A DNA stretch of 35,184 nucleotides, taken from assembly GCA_027621505.1 (NCBI GenBank), contig JAQCBK010000015.1, forward strand, positions 1 through 35,184. The letters run 5' to 3'. The position numbers were made by a program, and so were the translations under genes. The notes under the pieces are model-generated. The model saw only the letters and a program-made list of their open reading frames with translations, was not told the origin of the DNA and did not search any database. Source of the DNA: Bacteroidota bacterium. GTDB taxonomy: Bacteria; Bacteroidota; Bacteroidia; Flavobacteriales; Flavobacteriaceae. This document shows positions 2 through 20,162 of the stretch, piece by piece (positions within the stretch are counted from its first letter, which is position 1; every line of letters starts with the position of its first letter).

Positions 2-856
2 GATCCCAAAAGTGTTTTGGAGGAAATTGCTCAATTGAAAAACAAGGGTTATAAAGAGATTACTTTGTTGGGACAAAACGTTGACAGTTATTTGTGGTTT
101 GGGGGTGGCCTCAAAAAAGACTTCAAAAAAGCAAGTGCGCTTCAACAAAAAACTGCTGTAAATTTTGCTAATCTCCTCGATTTGGTTGCTACCGCTTATC
201 CCAATATGCGAATTCGTTTTTCAACATCCAATCCTCAAGACATGTCTTTGGAAGTGATCAATACAATGGCCAAACATGACAATATTTGCAATTACATTCA
301 CCTCCCGGTGCAATCTGGTAGCAACGCCATATTGAAAAAAATGAACCGTCAACATACTCGTGAGGACTATTTTGAGTTGATTAATAACATCTATAAAACA
401 ATACCCGATTGTGGGATTTCACACGACATGATCGCGGGTTTCCCAACGGAGACAGAAAAGGATCATCAAGATACTTTGAGTCTTATGGAATATGTAAAAT
501 ATGACTTCGGATTCATGTTCGCCTACTCTGAAAGGCCAGGAACCATGGCCGCAAAAAATATTGAAGATGATATTCCTGAACCCATAAAAAAAAGACGGTT
601 ACAAGAGATCATTGAACTACAGAGAGAACACAGTGAATTCAGAACCAAACAATTCATTGGGAAAACGGTATGCGTATTGATCGATAAAAGTTCCAAAAGA
701 TCCAATGATTATTGGAGTGGAAGAACAGGACAAAATACAGTTGCTGTTTTTCCTAAGGAAAATTATAAACTTGGAGATTTTGTTGACGTGAAAATTGAAG
801 AAGTAACTTCTGCGACACTGATTGGAAAAGCAGTAGGTATCTCCCAATCAATATAA
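2..856 (+). CDS. miaB: MiaB, tRNA methylthiotransferase (3' part)
   Basis: This is the C-terminal part (about 284 residues) of the radical-SAM enzyme that adds a 2-methylthio group to isopentenyl-adenosine at position 37 of tRNAs. The reading frame is open to the left edge, so the N-terminal UPF0004 domain and the CxxxCxxC cluster motif lie outside the window. Visible family marks are GYKEITLLGQNVDSY near the start, the IRFSTSNP and HLPVQSGS segments of the radical-SAM barrel, MIAGFPTET, the YSERPGT stretch, and a C-terminal TRAM RNA-binding domain of about 65 residues. A TTG at 17 is an internal leucine codon, not a start. The stop lies 4 bases before the sigma-54 activator, which suggests co-transcription. 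Identification is firm; only the truncation limits it. Confidence 0.95.
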   Translation, partial: DPKSVLEEIAQLKNKGYKEITLLGQNVDSYLWFGGGLKKDFKKASALQQKTAVNFANLLDLVATAYPNMRIRFSTSNPQDMSLEVINTMAKHDNICNYIHLPVQSGSNAILKKMNRQHTREDYFELINNIYKTIPDCGISHDMIAGFPTETEKDHQDTLSLMEYVKYDFGFMFAYSERPGTMAAKNIEDDIPEPIKKRRLQEIIELQREHSEFRTKQFIGKTVCVLIDKSSKRSNDYWSGRTGQNTVAVFPKENYKLGDFVDVKIEEVTSATLIGKAVGISQSI

Positions 857-860
857 TCAT

Positions 861-2123
861 ATGGAGTCAATTCAACACATCAAACAGCGTTTTGGAATCA
901 TAGGAAATGACAACGGACTCAACAGGGCTTTAGAAAAGGCATTGCGGGTTTCAGCAACCGAGATCACTGTTTTGGTGACCGGTGAAAGTGGAGTTGGAAA
1001 GGAAAACATTCCCAAAATCATTCATCAATTTTCACCTAGAAAACATGCCAAATATATAGCAGTCAATTGTGGAGCCATCCCTGAGGGAACCATTGACAGT
1101 GAGCTTTTTGGTCATGAAAAAGGAGCATTTACTGGGGCCACATCCAACAGAAGTGGCTATTTCGAAGTTGCCGATGGGGGAACAATTTTTTTGGATGAAG
1201 TTGGAGAACTACCCCTACCCACTCAAGTCAGGCTTTTAAGGGTTTTGGAAAATGGTGAATTTATCAAAGTAGGCTCCTCAAAAGTCCAAAAAACAAATGT
1301 TAGAATAGTTGCTGCCACCAACCTAAAAATGGTTGAAGCCATTAAAAGAGGGAAATTCAGAGAAGATCTTTACTACCGCCTAAGCACCGTTGAAATTCAC
1401 CTCCCTCCTCTTCGAGAGCGAAAAGAAGACATTCCTTTATTGTTCAGAAAATTTGCCTCTGATTTTGCTCAAAAATATAAAATGCCGACCCTAAAGTTGA
1501 ACGATGCCGCTCAAAAAGTTTTGGAACAATATCAGTGGAATGGGAACATAAGACAATTGAGAAATGTAGCCGAACAAATTTCTGTTTTGGAAAAAAACAG
1601 GGTGCTTGATGCCAATAAATTGAGAAATTACCTTCCCAGCATGGGATCACAGCTTCCAGCAGTGATCAATGATAGCAAACAAGAGGCTAATTTTTCTTCA
1701 GAAAGAGAAATTCTCTACAAAGTGCTCTTTGACATGAAGAATGATCTTAATGATTTAAAAAAGCTTACCCATGAATTGATGCAAAATGATAACGCGAATT
1801 CGGTACAAAAAAACAATACCGAGCTCATCAAAAAGATTTATGGTGATAATGAGGAAGAAACTGAGGCTTTGGCCTTAATCAGATCGGAAGATCAATCTAC
1901 TGTTCACAATACCCCACCTCAAATCAATCAGTACGATTATGCCGAAACCGTTATAGAAGAAGAACCCTTATCTTTATTGGAGAAAGAAATAGAGATGATC
2001 AAACAGGCTTTAAAGAGAAGCAATGGGAAAAGGAAAATGGCCGCCGAAGAATTAGGAATTTCTGAAAGAACACTTTATCGTAAAATCAAACAATTCGATT
2101 TACAAGATGATGAAAATGCATAA
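861..2123 (+). CDS. Sigma-54-dependent transcriptional activator without receiver domain
   Basis: This 420-residue protein is a bacterial enhancer-binding protein that would use ATP to open promoters held by RNA polymerase with sigma-54. The AAA+ domain fills about residues 12-250: Walker A GESGVGKE at 41-48, the sigma-54-contacting GAFTGA loop at 88-93, Walker B with the acidic pair D112-E113, and the sensor and arginine-finger segments FREDLYYRL and LPPLRERKEDIPLL. A poorly conserved linker of about 110 residues leads to a Fis-type helix-turn-helix at about 372-413 (AAEELGISERTLYRKI). No N-terminal receiver, PAS or GAF domain exists, so activity must be controlled by level, by a partner or through the linker. 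Its 3' end overlaps lptE. Targets cannot be read from the gene itself, but a -24/-12-like element lies upstream of groES about 1.8 kb downstream. Confidence 0.93.
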   Translation: MESIQHIKQRFGIIGNDNGLNRALEKALRVSATEITVLVTGESGVGKENIPKIIHQFSPRKHAKYIAVNCGAIPEGTIDSELFGHEKGAFTGATSNRSGYFEVADGGTIFLDEVGELPLPTQVRLLRVLENGEFIKVGSSKVQKTNVRIVAATNLKMVEAIKRGKFREDLYYRLSTVEIHLPPLRERKEDIPLLFRKFASDFAQKYKMPTLKLNDAAQKVLEQYQWNGNIRQLRNVAEQISVLEKNRVLDANKLRNYLPSMGSQLPAVINDSKQEANFSSEREILYKVLFDMKNDLNDLKKLTHELMQNDNANSVQKNNTELIKKIYGDNEEETEALALIRSEDQSTVHNTPPQINQYDYAETVIEEEPLSLLEKEIEMIKQALKRSNGKRKMAAEELGISERTLYRKIKQFDLQDDENA

Positions 2124-2631
2124 AGAGCTATCCATTCTATTGATCCTTTCTTTATTCTTGGAGGGTTGTGGTATTTACTCTTTTACAGGAGCTTCCATAC
2201 CTAGCGGTGCCAATACCTTTCAAGTGAATTTTTTTGAAAATCAGGCGGGCAGTCGACCGGGGTCTACAGTAGAACCTGGATTGGATCGCGATTTTACCTT
2301 GGCTCTTCAAGACCTAATTTTGGGTCAGACCAATCTGAATCTTGTGAGCTCTGGCGGTGATTTGGTTTATGAAGGAGAAATTACGCAATACAGCGTAACT
2401 CCGATGACCTCAACCGCCAATTTGACGGCTGCACAAAACCGCCTTACCATGACAGTAAATCTTCGCTATTACAATACCAATAATGAAGAAGATAATTTCG
2501 AAAGGAGTTTTAATTTTTTCTACGATTTCCCGGGAGATAAACAACTCTACGACATCCAGGGGCCAGCTCATGAAGAAATTTTCGAAAGAATCACCCAAGA
2601 TATTTTTAACGAGACATTAGCCAAATGGTGA
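2116..2631 (+). CDS. lptE: LptE-family LPS-assembly lipoprotein
   Basis: The protein (171 residues from this start) has a lipoprotein signal peptide ending in the lipobox L-E-G-C, followed by GIYSFTGASIP, typical of the Bacteroidota LptE branch. LptE is the outer-membrane lipoprotein that plugs and helps assemble the LptD beta-barrel in the final step of lipopolysaccharide insertion. The rest is a single alpha/beta domain with the segment YEGEITQYSVTPM and a C-terminal helix. In-frame ATG codons occur at 2107, 2110 and 2116; I chose 2116 because it gives the shortest basic n-region and an ATGCATAA overlap with the preceding stop, but the upstream ATGs are possible. The overlap with the sigma-54 activator and the downstream gene points to one transcript. 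LptC is encoded in the same window at 32388-32975. Confidence 0.85.
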   Translation: MHKELSILLILSLFLEGCGIYSFTGASIPSGANTFQVNFFENQAGSRPGSTVEPGLDRDFTLALQDLILGQTNLNLVSSGGDLVYEGEITQYSVTPMTSTANLTAAQNRLTMTVNLRYYNTNNEEDNFERSFNFFYDFPGDKQLYDIQGPAHEEIFERITQDIFNETLAKW

Positions 2632-2636
2632 GCCTA

Positions 2637-3527
2637 ATGAACAAGACAAAATTCAACAAATTGATCGAGAATTTTGACCCTAAAGAGCAATCATGGGAGG
2701 GTGACATTAAAATACTGATAAAAAAGTATCCCTACTTTCAACTGCCCCGTTTTTTTCATACCAAGTCACTAAAAGATCAAAACAATGCGACCTATGACAC
2801 TCAGTTGAATCGGTTGGCATTATACACCCATGATAGAGGAATATTAAAAAAATACATGGAATCTGACTTTAGTTTTCAAAAAAAGAAGCTGGATTTTGAT
2901 CTCCCTGACGATGAAATTCTCGAAAAACCAAATGCTACAGATAAAGATGTTATAGATGAAGCTATGGTTTTGGAGGAATCAAAAACGAAAAAAAAATCAA
3001 CCCTCTTAAAAAACAAATCAAAGGATTTAAATCTATCAACAAAAGATTCGAAAACCAAAGATTCAACCCTCTCTATTACTCCAAATAAGAAAAAATCCAA
3101 GAAAAATGTTTCTCAATCAATAGAAACAAAATCATCGGAACAAAAGTACCCCATAATACCAACTGGAGATTTAAAATTAAGTTTTACAGATTGGATAAGT
3201 TTTATAGAAAAAAAGAAAGATCATCCTACCCCTAATCAAAAGGAAGAGAATATCCCATTGAGTGATAAACTACCTATTATTGATAAGTTTATTGAAGCTG
3301 AACCAAAGATCAGCCCAGTGGGCAAAAATAAAAAGTCTGACTCCTTTGAGATGGAAGACCACTACTCTGATCAATTAATGACAGAAACTTTGGCAAAACT
3401 TTTGATCAAACAAAAAAAGTACAAAAAAGCAATGAGAGCTTACAAAATTTTAAGTTTGAAATATCCAGAAAAAAATGTTTTCTTTGCAGAGCAAATTCAA
3501 GAAATAAAGAATTTGTTACAACAATAA
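2637..3527 (+). CDS. Conserved protein of unknown function between lptE and secG
   Basis: I do not recognise a named family. The product has about 296 residues from the ATG at 2637; an alternative ATG at 2625 would overlap the lptE stop by 7 bases, whereas 2637 leaves a 5-base gap. The N-terminal third (about residues 1-85) is helical, with a KKYPYFQLPRFFH segment. The middle (about 90-220) is a low-complexity tract very rich in lysine, serine and threonine, probably disordered, although it contains a more ordered-looking LSFTDWISFIEKKK island. The C-terminal about 50 residues (TETLAKLLIKQKKYKKAMRAYKIL) look like a TPR-type helical pair. There is no signal peptide or membrane segment, so it is probably cytoplasmic. 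Its place between lptE and secG suggests a link to envelope biogenesis, but that is inference only. Confidence 0.8.
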   Translation: MNKTKFNKLIENFDPKEQSWEGDIKILIKKYPYFQLPRFFHTKSLKDQNNATYDTQLNRLALYTHDRGILKKYMESDFSFQKKKLDFDLPDDEILEKPNATDKDVIDEAMVLEESKTKKKSTLLKNKSKDLNLSTKDSKTKDSTLSITPNKKKSKKNVSQSIETKSSEQKYPIIPTGDLKLSFTDWISFIEKKKDHPTPNQKEENIPLSDKLPIIDKFIEAEPKISPVGKNKKSDSFEMEDHYSDQLMTETLAKLLIKQKKYKKAMRAYKILSLKYPEKNVFFAEQIQEIKNLLQQ

Positions 3528-3533
3528 ATAATC

Positions 3534-3890
3534 ATGGGTAGTTTTTCGATTTTCATTGGTTTGATCATCATCGTTAGTTTCCTGCTTGTACTGGTAGTAA
3601 TGGTTCAGAATCCTAAAGGCGGGGGGCTTTCCTCTTCATTTGGTGGTGGAGGTCAACAAATGGGAGGTGTTCAAAAAACATCTGATTTTTTAGATCGCAG
3701 TACATGGATCTTGGCCAGTCTACTACTCCTTCTTATTTTGCTATCAAACATATCTCTTGGAACTGGAAGTGGCAGTTCCAATTCACGCCTTATACAAGAT
3801 GATGCTCTGGAGACGCCCATTCCTGAGGTAATACCAGAAAGTATTCCTGAAACCATTCCTGAAGTTCCCCAAGATAACTCTCAAGAATAA
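3534..3890 (+). CDS. secG: SecG, protein translocase subunit
   Basis: The 118-residue product fits SecG, the small accessory subunit of the SecYEG protein-conducting channel in the inner membrane. Two hydrophobic segments (about residues 4-25 and 60-80) flank the diagnostic loop VVMVQNPKGGGLSSSFGGGG and the FLDRSTWILA stretch that leads into the second helix. It starts 6 bases after the preceding stop and is the last gene before the groES regulatory region. The C-terminal tail is unusual: after residue 95 it carries tandem Ile-Pro-Glu units (positions about 3816-3870) and ends in an acidic stretch. In the family this tail is variable, so function rests on the two-helix core. Confidence 0.93.
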   Translation: MGSFSIFIGLIIIVSFLLVLVVMVQNPKGGGLSSSFGGGGQQMGGVQKTSDFLDRSTWILASLLLLLILLSNISLGTGSGSSNSRLIQDDALETPIPEVIPESIPETIPEVPQDNSQE

Positions 3891-3903
3891 GCTCATGCCA
3901 TGC

Positions 3904-3941
3904 TGTCAGTAATTTGGACTAACCAATTACAATTTGTCAGT
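3904..3941 (+). promoter_or_regulatory. Paired TGTCAGT direct repeats upstream of groES
   Basis: TGTCAGT occurs at 3904-3910 and again at 3935-3941, a start-to-start spacing of 31 bases, about three turns of B-DNA, so both copies would face the same side of the helix. They lie 12-49 bases upstream of the sigma-54-like element and could be binding sites for an activator. No protein has been tied to this motif here; the pairing, phasing and position are what is seen, the role is inference. Confidence 0.4.
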
Positions 3942-3952
3942 CTATCCACCAC

Positions 3953-3967
3953 TGGCATGATTTATGA
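3953..3967 (+). promoter_or_regulatory. Sigma-54-like -24/-12 promoter element for groES-groEL
   Basis: TGGCATGATTTATGA matches the sigma-54 pattern TGGCAYR-N4-TTGCA closely: the invariant GG lies at 3954-3955 and the -12 G at 3966 with the standard spacing. The one important miss is the -12 GC dinucleotide, which reads GA. Transcription would begin near 3978, giving a leader of about 15 bases to the groES ATG. No good TAnnTTTG housekeeping element with proper spacing is visible in the same gap. The -24 half (TGGCATGA, 3953-3960) is also one arm of an 8-base inverted repeat with TCATGCCA at 3893-3900. Confidence 0.45.
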
Positions 3968-3993
3968 AAATTCAATAAATAAAACATTTAACA

Positions 3994-4272
3994 ATGAGTA
4001 AAGTAAATATCAAACCCCTAGCAGACCGCGTTTTGATTGAACCCGCTGCCGCCGAAACAAAAACTTCCTCTGGAATCATCATTCCTGATTCTGCAAAAGA
4101 AAAACCGCAGAAAGGTACAGTTGTTGCTATTGGTCCAGGGACAAAAGAACATCCAATAACCGTAAAAGTAGGAGATAGCGTTCTGTATGGAAAATACTCC
4201 GGTACAGAGTTACAGCATGATGGTCATGATTATCTGATCATGAGAGAAAGTGATATATTAGCAATTGTTTAA
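3994..4272 (+). CDS. groES: GroES, co-chaperonin Hsp10
   Basis: This 92-residue protein is the heptameric lid that caps GroEL during folding cycles in the cytoplasm. It opens with [33 protein letters not shown]: the conserved beta-core followed by the mobile loop whose Ile-Ile-Ile tripeptide docks on GroEL. The C-terminal part [14 protein letters not shown] and [13 protein letters not shown] is typical of the family. The length is normal. It precedes groEL by 18 bases and follows a 103-base regulatory gap after secG that contains a sigma-54-like element and repeats. Confidence 0.97.
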
Positions 4273-4275
4273 TAG

Positions 4276-5919
<1,644 letters not shown>

Positions 5920-5933
5920 TCCATTATTTATCT

Positions 5934-5968
5934 AAAAAAAACCTGCTTGAAAAAGCAGGTTTTTTTTA
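5934..5968. terminator. Bidirectional rho-independent terminator after groEL
   Basis: An 8-base-pair stem, ACCTGCTT (5941-5948) and AAGCAGGT (5953-5960), closes a GAAA loop. A run of seven A lies before the stem and eight T after it, so the hairpin can stop transcription in both directions. It sits between groEL and the stop codon of the convergent HMA gene, whose TAA begins at once after the T-run. Confidence 0.92.
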
Positions 5969-18047: not shown

Positions 18048-20162
18048 TTATTTCTTTATTTGAGCAAGAGGATAGTTGTCTAAATTGATATTTAAATCTT
18101 CTAAAATATTGACAGCCTCATCAATGTAAAAATCCTGCTGTAGGGATTCTACCCATCTTTTTTTCCTCTCTTTTACTACATCGTCAATGGGCATTCCTGG
18201 TTCTGCAATCCAATCAAAAGTAAGGGTTGAATGGTAATCTTTGAGCGCAGCAAACTTTTCATTTATTTTTTTATTCGCCGCTTTCTCCTCGACAAAATTG
18301 TCATAGTTTAGGGTATAGGTATAATCATCTTGTTGGACTTCAATCCTTCGAGCCTGTTGCTCCACTAGCTGAATGTAGGGATTGTCTTTTAATCTTTTAG
18401 CGCTTTGACTCAAGACATAATCATAGTTGATCTGGTTTCCCCACTGCTTGTATCGAGCGGGGTCAATACGATCCCAAGCCAAAGGATTGTCTTGATCCTT
18501 CTCCCCCATTTCAATGTACGAATATTGATTTTTTACCACAATATCACTTTTAACCCCTTCCAATTGGGTAGAACCTCCATTGATTCGGTAGAATTTATCG
18601 GTAGTGAGTTTCACGGCTCCCAGATCTCCGTAGGTTCCACCAGAAATAATTCGATTTAAATCGATAACATTTTGGACGGTTCCTTTGCCAAAGGTTTGCT
18701 TGCTCCCCAAAATAATTGCTCTTTTGTAATCTTGAAGTGCGGCAGCTAAAATTTCAGAAGCGGATGCAGAAAATTCATTAACCATAATAACCAAAGAACC
18801 ATCCCATACTATGGTGGGATCTTCGTCATACAAAACATCTTTTTTACCACCAGTACTTTTAACTTGAACAACGGGTCCCTTATCGATAAAAAAACCAGTT
18901 ATGTCAACAACCGTTTTTAGGGAACCACCTCCATTGTCTCTCAAATCAAGAATAACTCCTTTTACCTCCTTATTTTTAAGGATTTCCAATTGTTTTTTTA
19001 TGTCACTGGCTGCATTTCTACTGTTTTGATCTTTAAAGTCGATATAAAACTTGGGTAATTCTATCAGCCCGTATTTTTTCCCATTTTTTAATATAATAGA
19101 TGACTTAGCATAGGACTCCTCTAACTCCACAACATCTCTATTGATCACCACCTCCTCTATAATTCCACTCACCCTTTTGACGGTCAAAAAGACCTGTGTA
19201 CCCTTGGGGCCTTTGATCAGTTTTACTGCATCATTCAAACGCATGGGGCCTATCTCTACTGGGGTTTCGTCTTTTTGTGCAACTTTGAGAATCACATCTC
19301 CCACTTCCAATGCTTTCGCTTTCCAGACTGGTCCACCAACAATGACCTCAATGATCTCTACCTCTTGGTCCTTTTTTTGTAATCTGGCTCCAATGCCTTC
19401 AAATTTCCCAGAAATGTTTTGATCAAATTTTTCTTTGTCGTCTGGGGCAAAATAATTGCTATGTGGATCAAACTCCAATGTGATGGCATTCACGTAAACA
19501 GAAAACCAGTCTTTACGCTCAATATCTTCAAATATTTTAAAGTAGTTTTCAATATTCTCCCTTGTCTTATTCCTCGCCTCTTCTTCCAATAATATTTCTG
19601 ACTTGATAAGCAAAGTGCTGTCTTTCTCTTTTTCAAAATTTTGTTGTTCCACCAAATCCGAAAAATACTCCAAAGCAGAAAGTTTAAATCTTTTTCTCCA
19701 ACGATTTTTTAATCCATTTAAGGTTTTAGCGTAAGGAATTTCCTCGAAGTTAAGGTTAATTGAGTCTTGGGTACTAAAATCAAATGGCTGGTCTAACAAT
19801 TCCCCATAAAAAGCCTTCACTTGATCCATACGAGAAACCAGCCTTTCGTAAGCCATATTGAAAAAAGAAATATCCGCCTCTTTAATCTGATCGTCAATTT
19901 CATTTTTATACCTCCTAAAATTATTAATGTCAGATTGCAAGAAAAAACGGTGTTGACCGTCAATGCCCTCGATAAAATTATTTAAAACATTCTCCGAAAA
20001 TGTGTCGTTGATATCCTTGGGGTCATAGTGTCCTCTTTGTAAGACATAAGTGATGACCTCAATCAATAATTTATCCTTATCAGGATTTTCATTAATCGAT
20101 GAGGAACCAGTTGTTAGAAGTAAAACGCAAATTGAGACAACAAAGAGTCTTACAAACATCAT
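18048..20162 (-). CDS. prc: Tail-specific (C-terminal processing) protease
   Basis: The 704-residue product matches Prc/Tsp, a periplasmic serine protease that degrades proteins from their C-terminus and trims envelope enzymes. A signal peptide (about 1-22) is followed by an N-terminal helical domain, a PDZ domain (about 255-345, FEGIGARLQKKDQEVEIIEV), the S41 core (GLIELPKFYIDF, GVILDLRDNGGGSL) and a C-terminal DUF3340-type region. By alignment to E. coli Prc the catalytic pair is Ser467 in FSASASEI and Lys493 in TFGKGTVQ. It is the first gene of a two-gene unit with the ABC permease and is transcribed away from surE across a 132-base gap. Confidence 0.95.
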   Translation of the reverse strand: MMFVRLFVVSICVLLLTTGSSSINENPDKDKLLIEVITYVLQRGHYDPKDINDTFSENVLNNFIEGIDGQHRFFLQSDINNFRRYKNEIDDQIKEADISFFNMAYERLVSRMDQVKAFYGELLDQPFDFSTQDSINLNFEEIPYAKTLNGLKNRWRKRFKLSALEYFSDLVEQQNFEKEKDSTLLIKSEILLEEEARNKTRENIENYFKIFEDIERKDWFSVYVNAITLEFDPHSNYFAPDDKEKFDQNISGKFEGIGARLQKKDQEVEIIEVIVGGPVWKAKALEVGDVILKVAQKDETPVEIGPMRLNDAVKLIKGPKGTQVFLTVKRVSGIIEEVVINRDVVELEESYAKSSIILKNGKKYGLIELPKFYIDFKDQNSRNAASDIKKQLEILKNKEVKGVILDLRDNGGGSLKTVVDITGFFIDKGPVVQVKSTGGKKDVLYDEDPTIVWDGSLVIMVNEFSASASEILAAALQDYKRAIILGSKQTFGKGTVQNVIDLNRIISGGTYGDLGAVKLTTDKFYRINGGSTQLEGVKSDIVVKNQYSYIEMGEKDQDNPLAWDRIDPARYKQWGNQINYDYVLSQSAKRLKDNPYIQLVEQQARRIEVQQDDYTYTLNYDNFVEEKAANKKINEKFAALKDYHSTLTFDWIAEPGMPIDDVVKERKKRWVESLQQDFYIDEAVNILEDLNINLDNYPLAQIKK

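Follow-up and report, generated by a model that had tools for sequence, protein, structure and literature searches.

The window analyzed here, a DNA stretch of 35,184 nucleotides, corresponds to contig 17 of the source genome G000, which is Bacteroidia-type (1.85 Mb, 86% complete). As assigned with Pfam, it carries the gene run miaB, activator, lptE, a 300-aa ORF, secG, groES and groEL (Table 1). G000 also encodes rpoN (PF00309, 2.4e-14; PF04552, 3.9e-51) and has two full sigma-54 activators. The activator in the gene run is 420 aa long and consists of a Sigma54_activat domain with the GAFTGA loop, an AAA lid, a linker of ~110 aa, and a Fis-type HTH. No receiver domain was detected in it by the Pfam scan, in agreement with the original prediction, which was made from the sequence of the window and placed a receiver-less sigma-54 activator in this gene run. 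On the 3′ side of groEL, a strong hairpin followed by a T-run (ACCTGCTTGAAAAAGCAGGTTTTTTTT; 5933-5967) is likely a terminator.

Table 1. Features of the miaB-groEL gene run in the window
Feature	Position	Strand	Remarks
miaB-type gene, 3′ part	17..856	+	Radical_SAM + TRAM; own promoter outside window
Orphan sigma-54 activator	861..2123	+	PF00158 1.1e-65, PF25601, PF02954
lptE	2107..2631	+	PF04390 6e-17
300-aa ORF between lptE and secG	2625..3527	+	without Pfam match
secG	3534..3890	+	PF03840 3.9e-19
Enhancer element 1 (predicted)	3896..3908	+	TGCCATGCTGTCA; starts 57 bp before TGG; holds first TGTCAGT
Enhancer element 2 (predicted, degenerate)	3927..3939	+	TTACAATTTGTCA; matrix score; starts 26 bp before TGG; holds second TGTCAGT
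Sigma-54 -24/-12 promoter core	3953..3967	+	TGGCATGATTTATGA (GG-N10-GA); predicted start near 3979
groES	3994..4272	+	PF00166 4e-34
groEL	4291..5919	+	PF00118 6.4e-83

The sigma-54 promoter of groESL in Bacteroidia

The core sequence TGGCATGATTTATGA in the secG-groES gap lies where a sigma-54-like motif had been predicted. The -24 GG is located at 3954-3955 and is followed by the fixed 10-base spacing to the -13 G at 3966, and the -12 position is A (3967) instead of C. On its own, this match is weak to marginal (shuffle p ~0.03-0.035), and its significance derives from class-wide conservation. Of 51 groES loci from Bacteroidia, 43 have the strict sigma-54 pattern upstream (dinucleotide shuffles predict 1.05), as do all 29 dnaK regions (0.35 expected) and 28 of 29 lon regions (0.45 expected). 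Moreover, alignment of the groES upstream regions, which had been proposed as a check of the prediction, revealed that the promoter and an upstream TGTCA (present in 39 of 44 regions with a groES sigma-54 site, 4.9 expected) are both conserved.

The -13 G is invariant in the 44 aligned groES sites, and the -12 dinucleotide reads GA in 27, GC in 9, and GT in 8 of these. The dnaK sites (TTGA, 20; TTGT, 6; TTGC, 1) and the lon sites (TTGA, 19; TTGT, 7; TTGC, 2) show the same trend, and A or T occupies -12 in 94 of the at least 116 composite element-promoter matches discussed below. C at -12 is therefore not a defining base in Bacteroidia, where GA is the rule, and the initial view of the GA in the window as a departure from the pattern has to be given up. 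In G000, the dnaK promoter is TGGCACAGTGATTGA, with the element TGACAAGTTGTCA 25 bp upstream, and the lon promoter is TGGCACAACAATTGA. At the level of sequence, these comparisons establish a sigma-54 promoter of the Bacteroidia type, TGGCAY-N6-YGA, for groESL and show that it belongs to a conserved set of predicted promoters including those of dnaK, lon, htpG, grpE, clpB, and hsp20. In Flavobacterium psychrophilum, the start of groESL has been mapped by 5′-end sequencing and carries a sigma-54 motif, and the lon, dnaK, grpE-dnaJ, htpG, and clpB starts likewise carry it (PMC9723704). Hence, the sigma-54 start of groESL as such is already known from this organism. A promoter-only pattern, TGGCAYNNNNNYTGM, was also tried for a genome-wide list; it has 48 matches in G000, and a list based on the promoter alone is therefore unusable. 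A second groES copy, in G287, lacks a sigma-54 site.

TCATGCCA (3893-3900) and TGGCATGA (3953-3960), the latter including the -24 element, are perfect inverted repeats, and the transcript strand over them has a fold z of -2.4. This repeat may be what is left of the secG terminator that relatives have. The reading of TGGCATGA as a mere 3′ arm of such a terminator, pairing with TCATGCCA, was set aside because relatives in which the terminator is a separate structure also have the site at this position before groES.

An upstream element in helical phase with the promoter

The two TGTCAGT repeats that had drawn attention to the region are present at 3904-3910 and 3935-3941, 31 bp apart, and each proved to be half of a larger unit. 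This unit is the 13-bp TGNCA-N3-TGTCA, the best form of which is the dyad TGACA-N3-TGTCA. TGNCA word pairs favor the exact 3-bp gap, which occurs at 33 groES loci (0.0 expected) and 16 dnaK loci (0.4 expected). Counted as TGNCA-N3-TGTCA, the unit is found in 33 of 51 groES upstream regions (0.25 expected) and in 16 of 29 dnaK upstream regions (0 expected). The strict element is thus missing from about one-third of the former and half of the latter, many of which have half-sites. An earlier guess at the element, TGTCANTNTTGTCA, gave 19 matches in G000 against nine for the reversed control and was dropped, as it provided no lead.

The starts of the elements relative to TGG cluster at -25, -35, -56, -67, -78, -88, -99, and -108, and follow a 10.5-bp period (R=0.79 for groES and R=0.86 for dnaK). 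Since the p values for this phasing assume that the sequences are independent, the test was redone on a sample in which each family contributed a single sequence (14 groES and eight dnaK values), which lowers the phylogenetic dependence, some of which remains, and this gave R=0.93. The phase in this sample is common to groES (6.5) and dnaK (6.3). The two elements in the window, at -57 and -26, match the class phase; element 2 starts 31 bp, or three turns, after element 1, and its position agrees with the -25 cluster of the dnaK promoters. Whole-turn spacing over many families constitutes a natural record of enhancer geometry.

In an open scan covering 84,980 species genomes, the palindromic element had to be followed, after a free gap of 10-40, by the -24/-12 promoter; this gave at least 116 matches, with gaps of 11-13 (79 matches), 21-24 (22), 32-35 (11), and others (four). 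Among the 80 matches listed, 77 have Bacteroidota titles and 65 have a chaperone or protease gene downstream. The downstream genes of these 80 are dnaK (38), groES (nine), htpG (seven), lon (three), hsp20 (three), clpB (two), and one each of clpC-like, grpE, and htrA; four are other genes, and for 11 none was readable. HtpG, GrpE, Hsp20, ClpB, ClpC-like, and Do protease were verified by NCBIfam, in one case each, and the remaining downstream genes were assigned by local BLAST or start sequence. Outside Bacteroidota titles, the composite element-promoter precedes lon in a Neomarinimicrobiota MAG, which suggests that the system may extend to the wider FCB group, and in a MAG titled Euryarchaeota, which may be misbinned.

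At seven lon loci (L201-L204, L206, L220, L223), the element instead follows the sigma-54 site at a distance of 60-118 bp and lies 17-27 bp before the ATG, in most cases as TGACA-N3-TGACA. In addition, the secG terminator hairpin before groES carries enhancer words in its stem or loop at L004, L010, L016, L017, L048, L063, and L070 (examples are AATGCCAGCCTGTCAGTGCTGGCATTTTT and ATGTCAGTATGTCACCATACTGACATTTTTTTT), so one stretch may act both as terminator and as enhancer.

A probable regulator of the element

The activator was found in 174 of 178 Bacteroidia genomes, as was rpoN (174 of 178). Across 41 further members from the class, its HTH (GkRK.AA.eLGISERTLYRKIk) hardly varies. At least 40 genomes, chosen for this proximity, have the activator and groES no more than a few kb apart, and groES closely follows the activator in G272 and G282, both of which are reduced. 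In the miaB-activator operon, too, the element is present, where it overlies the predicted housekeeping promoter; this holds for 14 of 17 genomes (0.005 expected). In 11 genomes, a -7 box (TAnnTTTG) is present 16-20 bp after this operon element, and a bound protein would therefore cover the -33 region.

These data have to be weighed against other ways of controlling groESL. Expression mainly from a housekeeping promoter or by read-through from secG, with the sigma-54-like site being incidental, would fit the weakness of the window match taken alone and the secG-groES gap, in which no terminator-like site was found. Nevertheless, the Bacteroidetes housekeeping -7 box TAnnTTTG is absent within 3891-3993 and an E. 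coli-type promoter gave only a weak match at chance level, which bears out the original prediction that no well-spaced housekeeping promoter is present. Moreover, the promoter is conserved throughout the class, in relatives the secG terminator precedes it, and a sigma-54-type start has been mapped in F. psychrophilum (PMC9723704). We therefore consider this explanation very unlikely. Repression by HrcA at CIRCE gains some credit from CIRCE-like repeats before groES in genomes of families f11 and f62; these repeats, however, occur where the sigma-54 site is missing, and the CIRCE inverted repeat TTAGCACTC-N9-GAGTGCTAA is absent from the gap at 3891-3993. HrcA/CIRCE control of groESL here is accordingly extremely unlikely. 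The groES genes with CIRCE (TTAGCACTC...AGTGCTAA) and without a sigma-54 site are L356, L357, and L358 (f62) and L026 and L029 (f11), and point, as read from these sites, to the replacement of sigma-54 by HrcA-type control. Despite CIRCE at groES, the activator is retained in family f62, as is rpoN in two of three genomes.

A closer alternative accepts that the groES promoter depends on sigma-54 and has another regulator bind the element, the neighboring activator serving other promoters. In its favor, larger genomes encode two to eight activators each, and the assignment to the activator in the gene run is predicted from sequence. On the other hand, element and promoter are kept where this type of activator is the sole one (see below), the element is present in the promoter of the activator's own operon, and its spacing is helically locked to the -24 element, as expected of a protein touching the holoenzyme. 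This alternative is thus improbable, and we consider it highly probable that the orphan activator in the window would bind the phased elements, drive a sigma-54 regulon for protein quality control and probably repress its own operon.

Proposed regulation, known systems, and reduced genomes

In the proposed model, a dimer of the activator would bind the TGNCA-N3-TGTCA elements on the same face of the DNA as the holoenzyme. The bound activator would assemble into a hexamer, and its GAFTGA loop would contact sigma-54, leading to ATP-driven promoter opening. Positioned on the element over the housekeeping promoter of miaB-activator, it would hold its own operon down. Since the activator has no N-terminal sensor, control in trans is likely, perhaps exerted by free chaperones or by a partner protein sensing unfolded protein. 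The linker holds a conserved segment, ER..YKvLfdmk.d...lK, which is a candidate site for this control.

The original prediction had linked the chaperonin genes, through this activator or a relative, to envelope status, given the neighbors lptE and secG. The neighboring activator is retained as the likely partner of the promoter, while the envelope part is unsupported because the targets concern general protein quality control and because groES of the reduced genome G119, now located apart from the activator and its neighbors, still has its promoter. Elements precede dnaK, groES, lon, htpG, grpE, clpB, clpC, hsp20, and htrA. The envelope part of the regulon is htrA (here) and skp (F. psychrophilum); the rest is general protein quality control. 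So far, chaperone control in Bacteroidia has been known in part, with sigma-54 promoters seen and the activator unnamed. With a near-universal activator and a specific 13-bp element named, this control becomes open to direct tests.

PspF, the phage-shock activator, resembles the activator in having no regulatory domain, a Fis-type HTH, and stress genes as targets. It is also known for negative autoregulation. The activator scores 266.7 bits against the NCBIfam PspF equivalog, below the cut-off of 443.55, and unlike PspF it has a long linker with the conserved ER..YKvLfdmk and cytosolic chaperones as targets. The NorR enhancers, GTCA-N3-TGAC, are likewise short dyads, have a 3-bp spacer and serve a Fis-type HTH activator as binding sites (binding being predicted here); however, the half-sites are reversed in TGACA-N3-TGTCA and the regulons differ. 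Heat-shock control by sigma-32 or HrcA/CIRCE acts on the same target genes, whereas activation by sigma-54 and an ATPase activator is proposed here in place of a heat-shock sigma factor or a repressor.

The sigma-54 promoters of F. psychrophilum, termed SM4, belong to the same -24/-12 class and precede the same genes as here, and the neighborhood matches the window (activator THC0290_0733, lptE 0732, groES 0729). That study mapped the starts, named no activator or enhancer and suggested several activators as possible (PMC9723704). A cross-bacterial prediction of sigma-54 regulons also reported chaperone genes as enriched targets in Bacteroidota and Planctomycetota; its text, as searched, presents promoter matrices only and neither describes an enhancer or phasing nor assigns an activator (PMC12316311). 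Searches of open-licence papers yielded no earlier description of the enhancer or of its helical phasing, nor of the assignment to the activator or the link to reduced genomes. These points, including the explanation offered for RpoN in reduced genomes, appear new.

In G119 (0.49 Mb), in five members of f98 (~0.34-0.63 Mb), and in 11 members of f90, f93, and f94, the activator is the only one. Judging from size and gene content, f98 may be the Blattabacterium family, which is a guess. A clear groES sigma-54 site is present in 15 of the 16 sole-activator genomes of f98, f90, f93, and f94, and f98 members have exact groES elements at -36, -47, or -55/-56. This shows that the activator suffices there and leaves room for further proteins that bind the element. 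G119, G272, and G282 keep rpoN. In G119, there are six intergenic sigma-54 matches, those of groES, dnaK, and lon among them, and the groES elements are degenerate; its only exact element lies 44 bp before grpE (19111-19659), with no visible sigma-54 site between. In G282 (630 kb), exact TGWCA-N3-TGWCA occurs three times, before grpE, miaB-activator, and groES, and not in reversed controls. For G272 and G282, the strict genome-wide promoter scan gave a noisy output (in G282, seven intergenic matches against six in the reversed control), and the groES and dnaK sites there were found only by direct inspection.

The retention of RpoN in small symbiont genomes has been described as unusual and related to nitrogen (PMC3971599). 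Chaperone control by the activator offers a simple possible reason why symbionts of 0.3-0.6 Mb keep RpoN. According to a broader proposal, the activator would act as general heat-shock regulator throughout the class Bacteroidia, fulfilling with sigma-54 the role that sigma-32 or HrcA has elsewhere; it would be titrated by chaperones via the conserved linker and would be the reason that reduced Bacteroidota endosymbionts keep sigma-54. This proposal is tentative, and we regard it as possible rather than probable. In the sole activator of G119, the GAFTGA loop reads GSFTSA.
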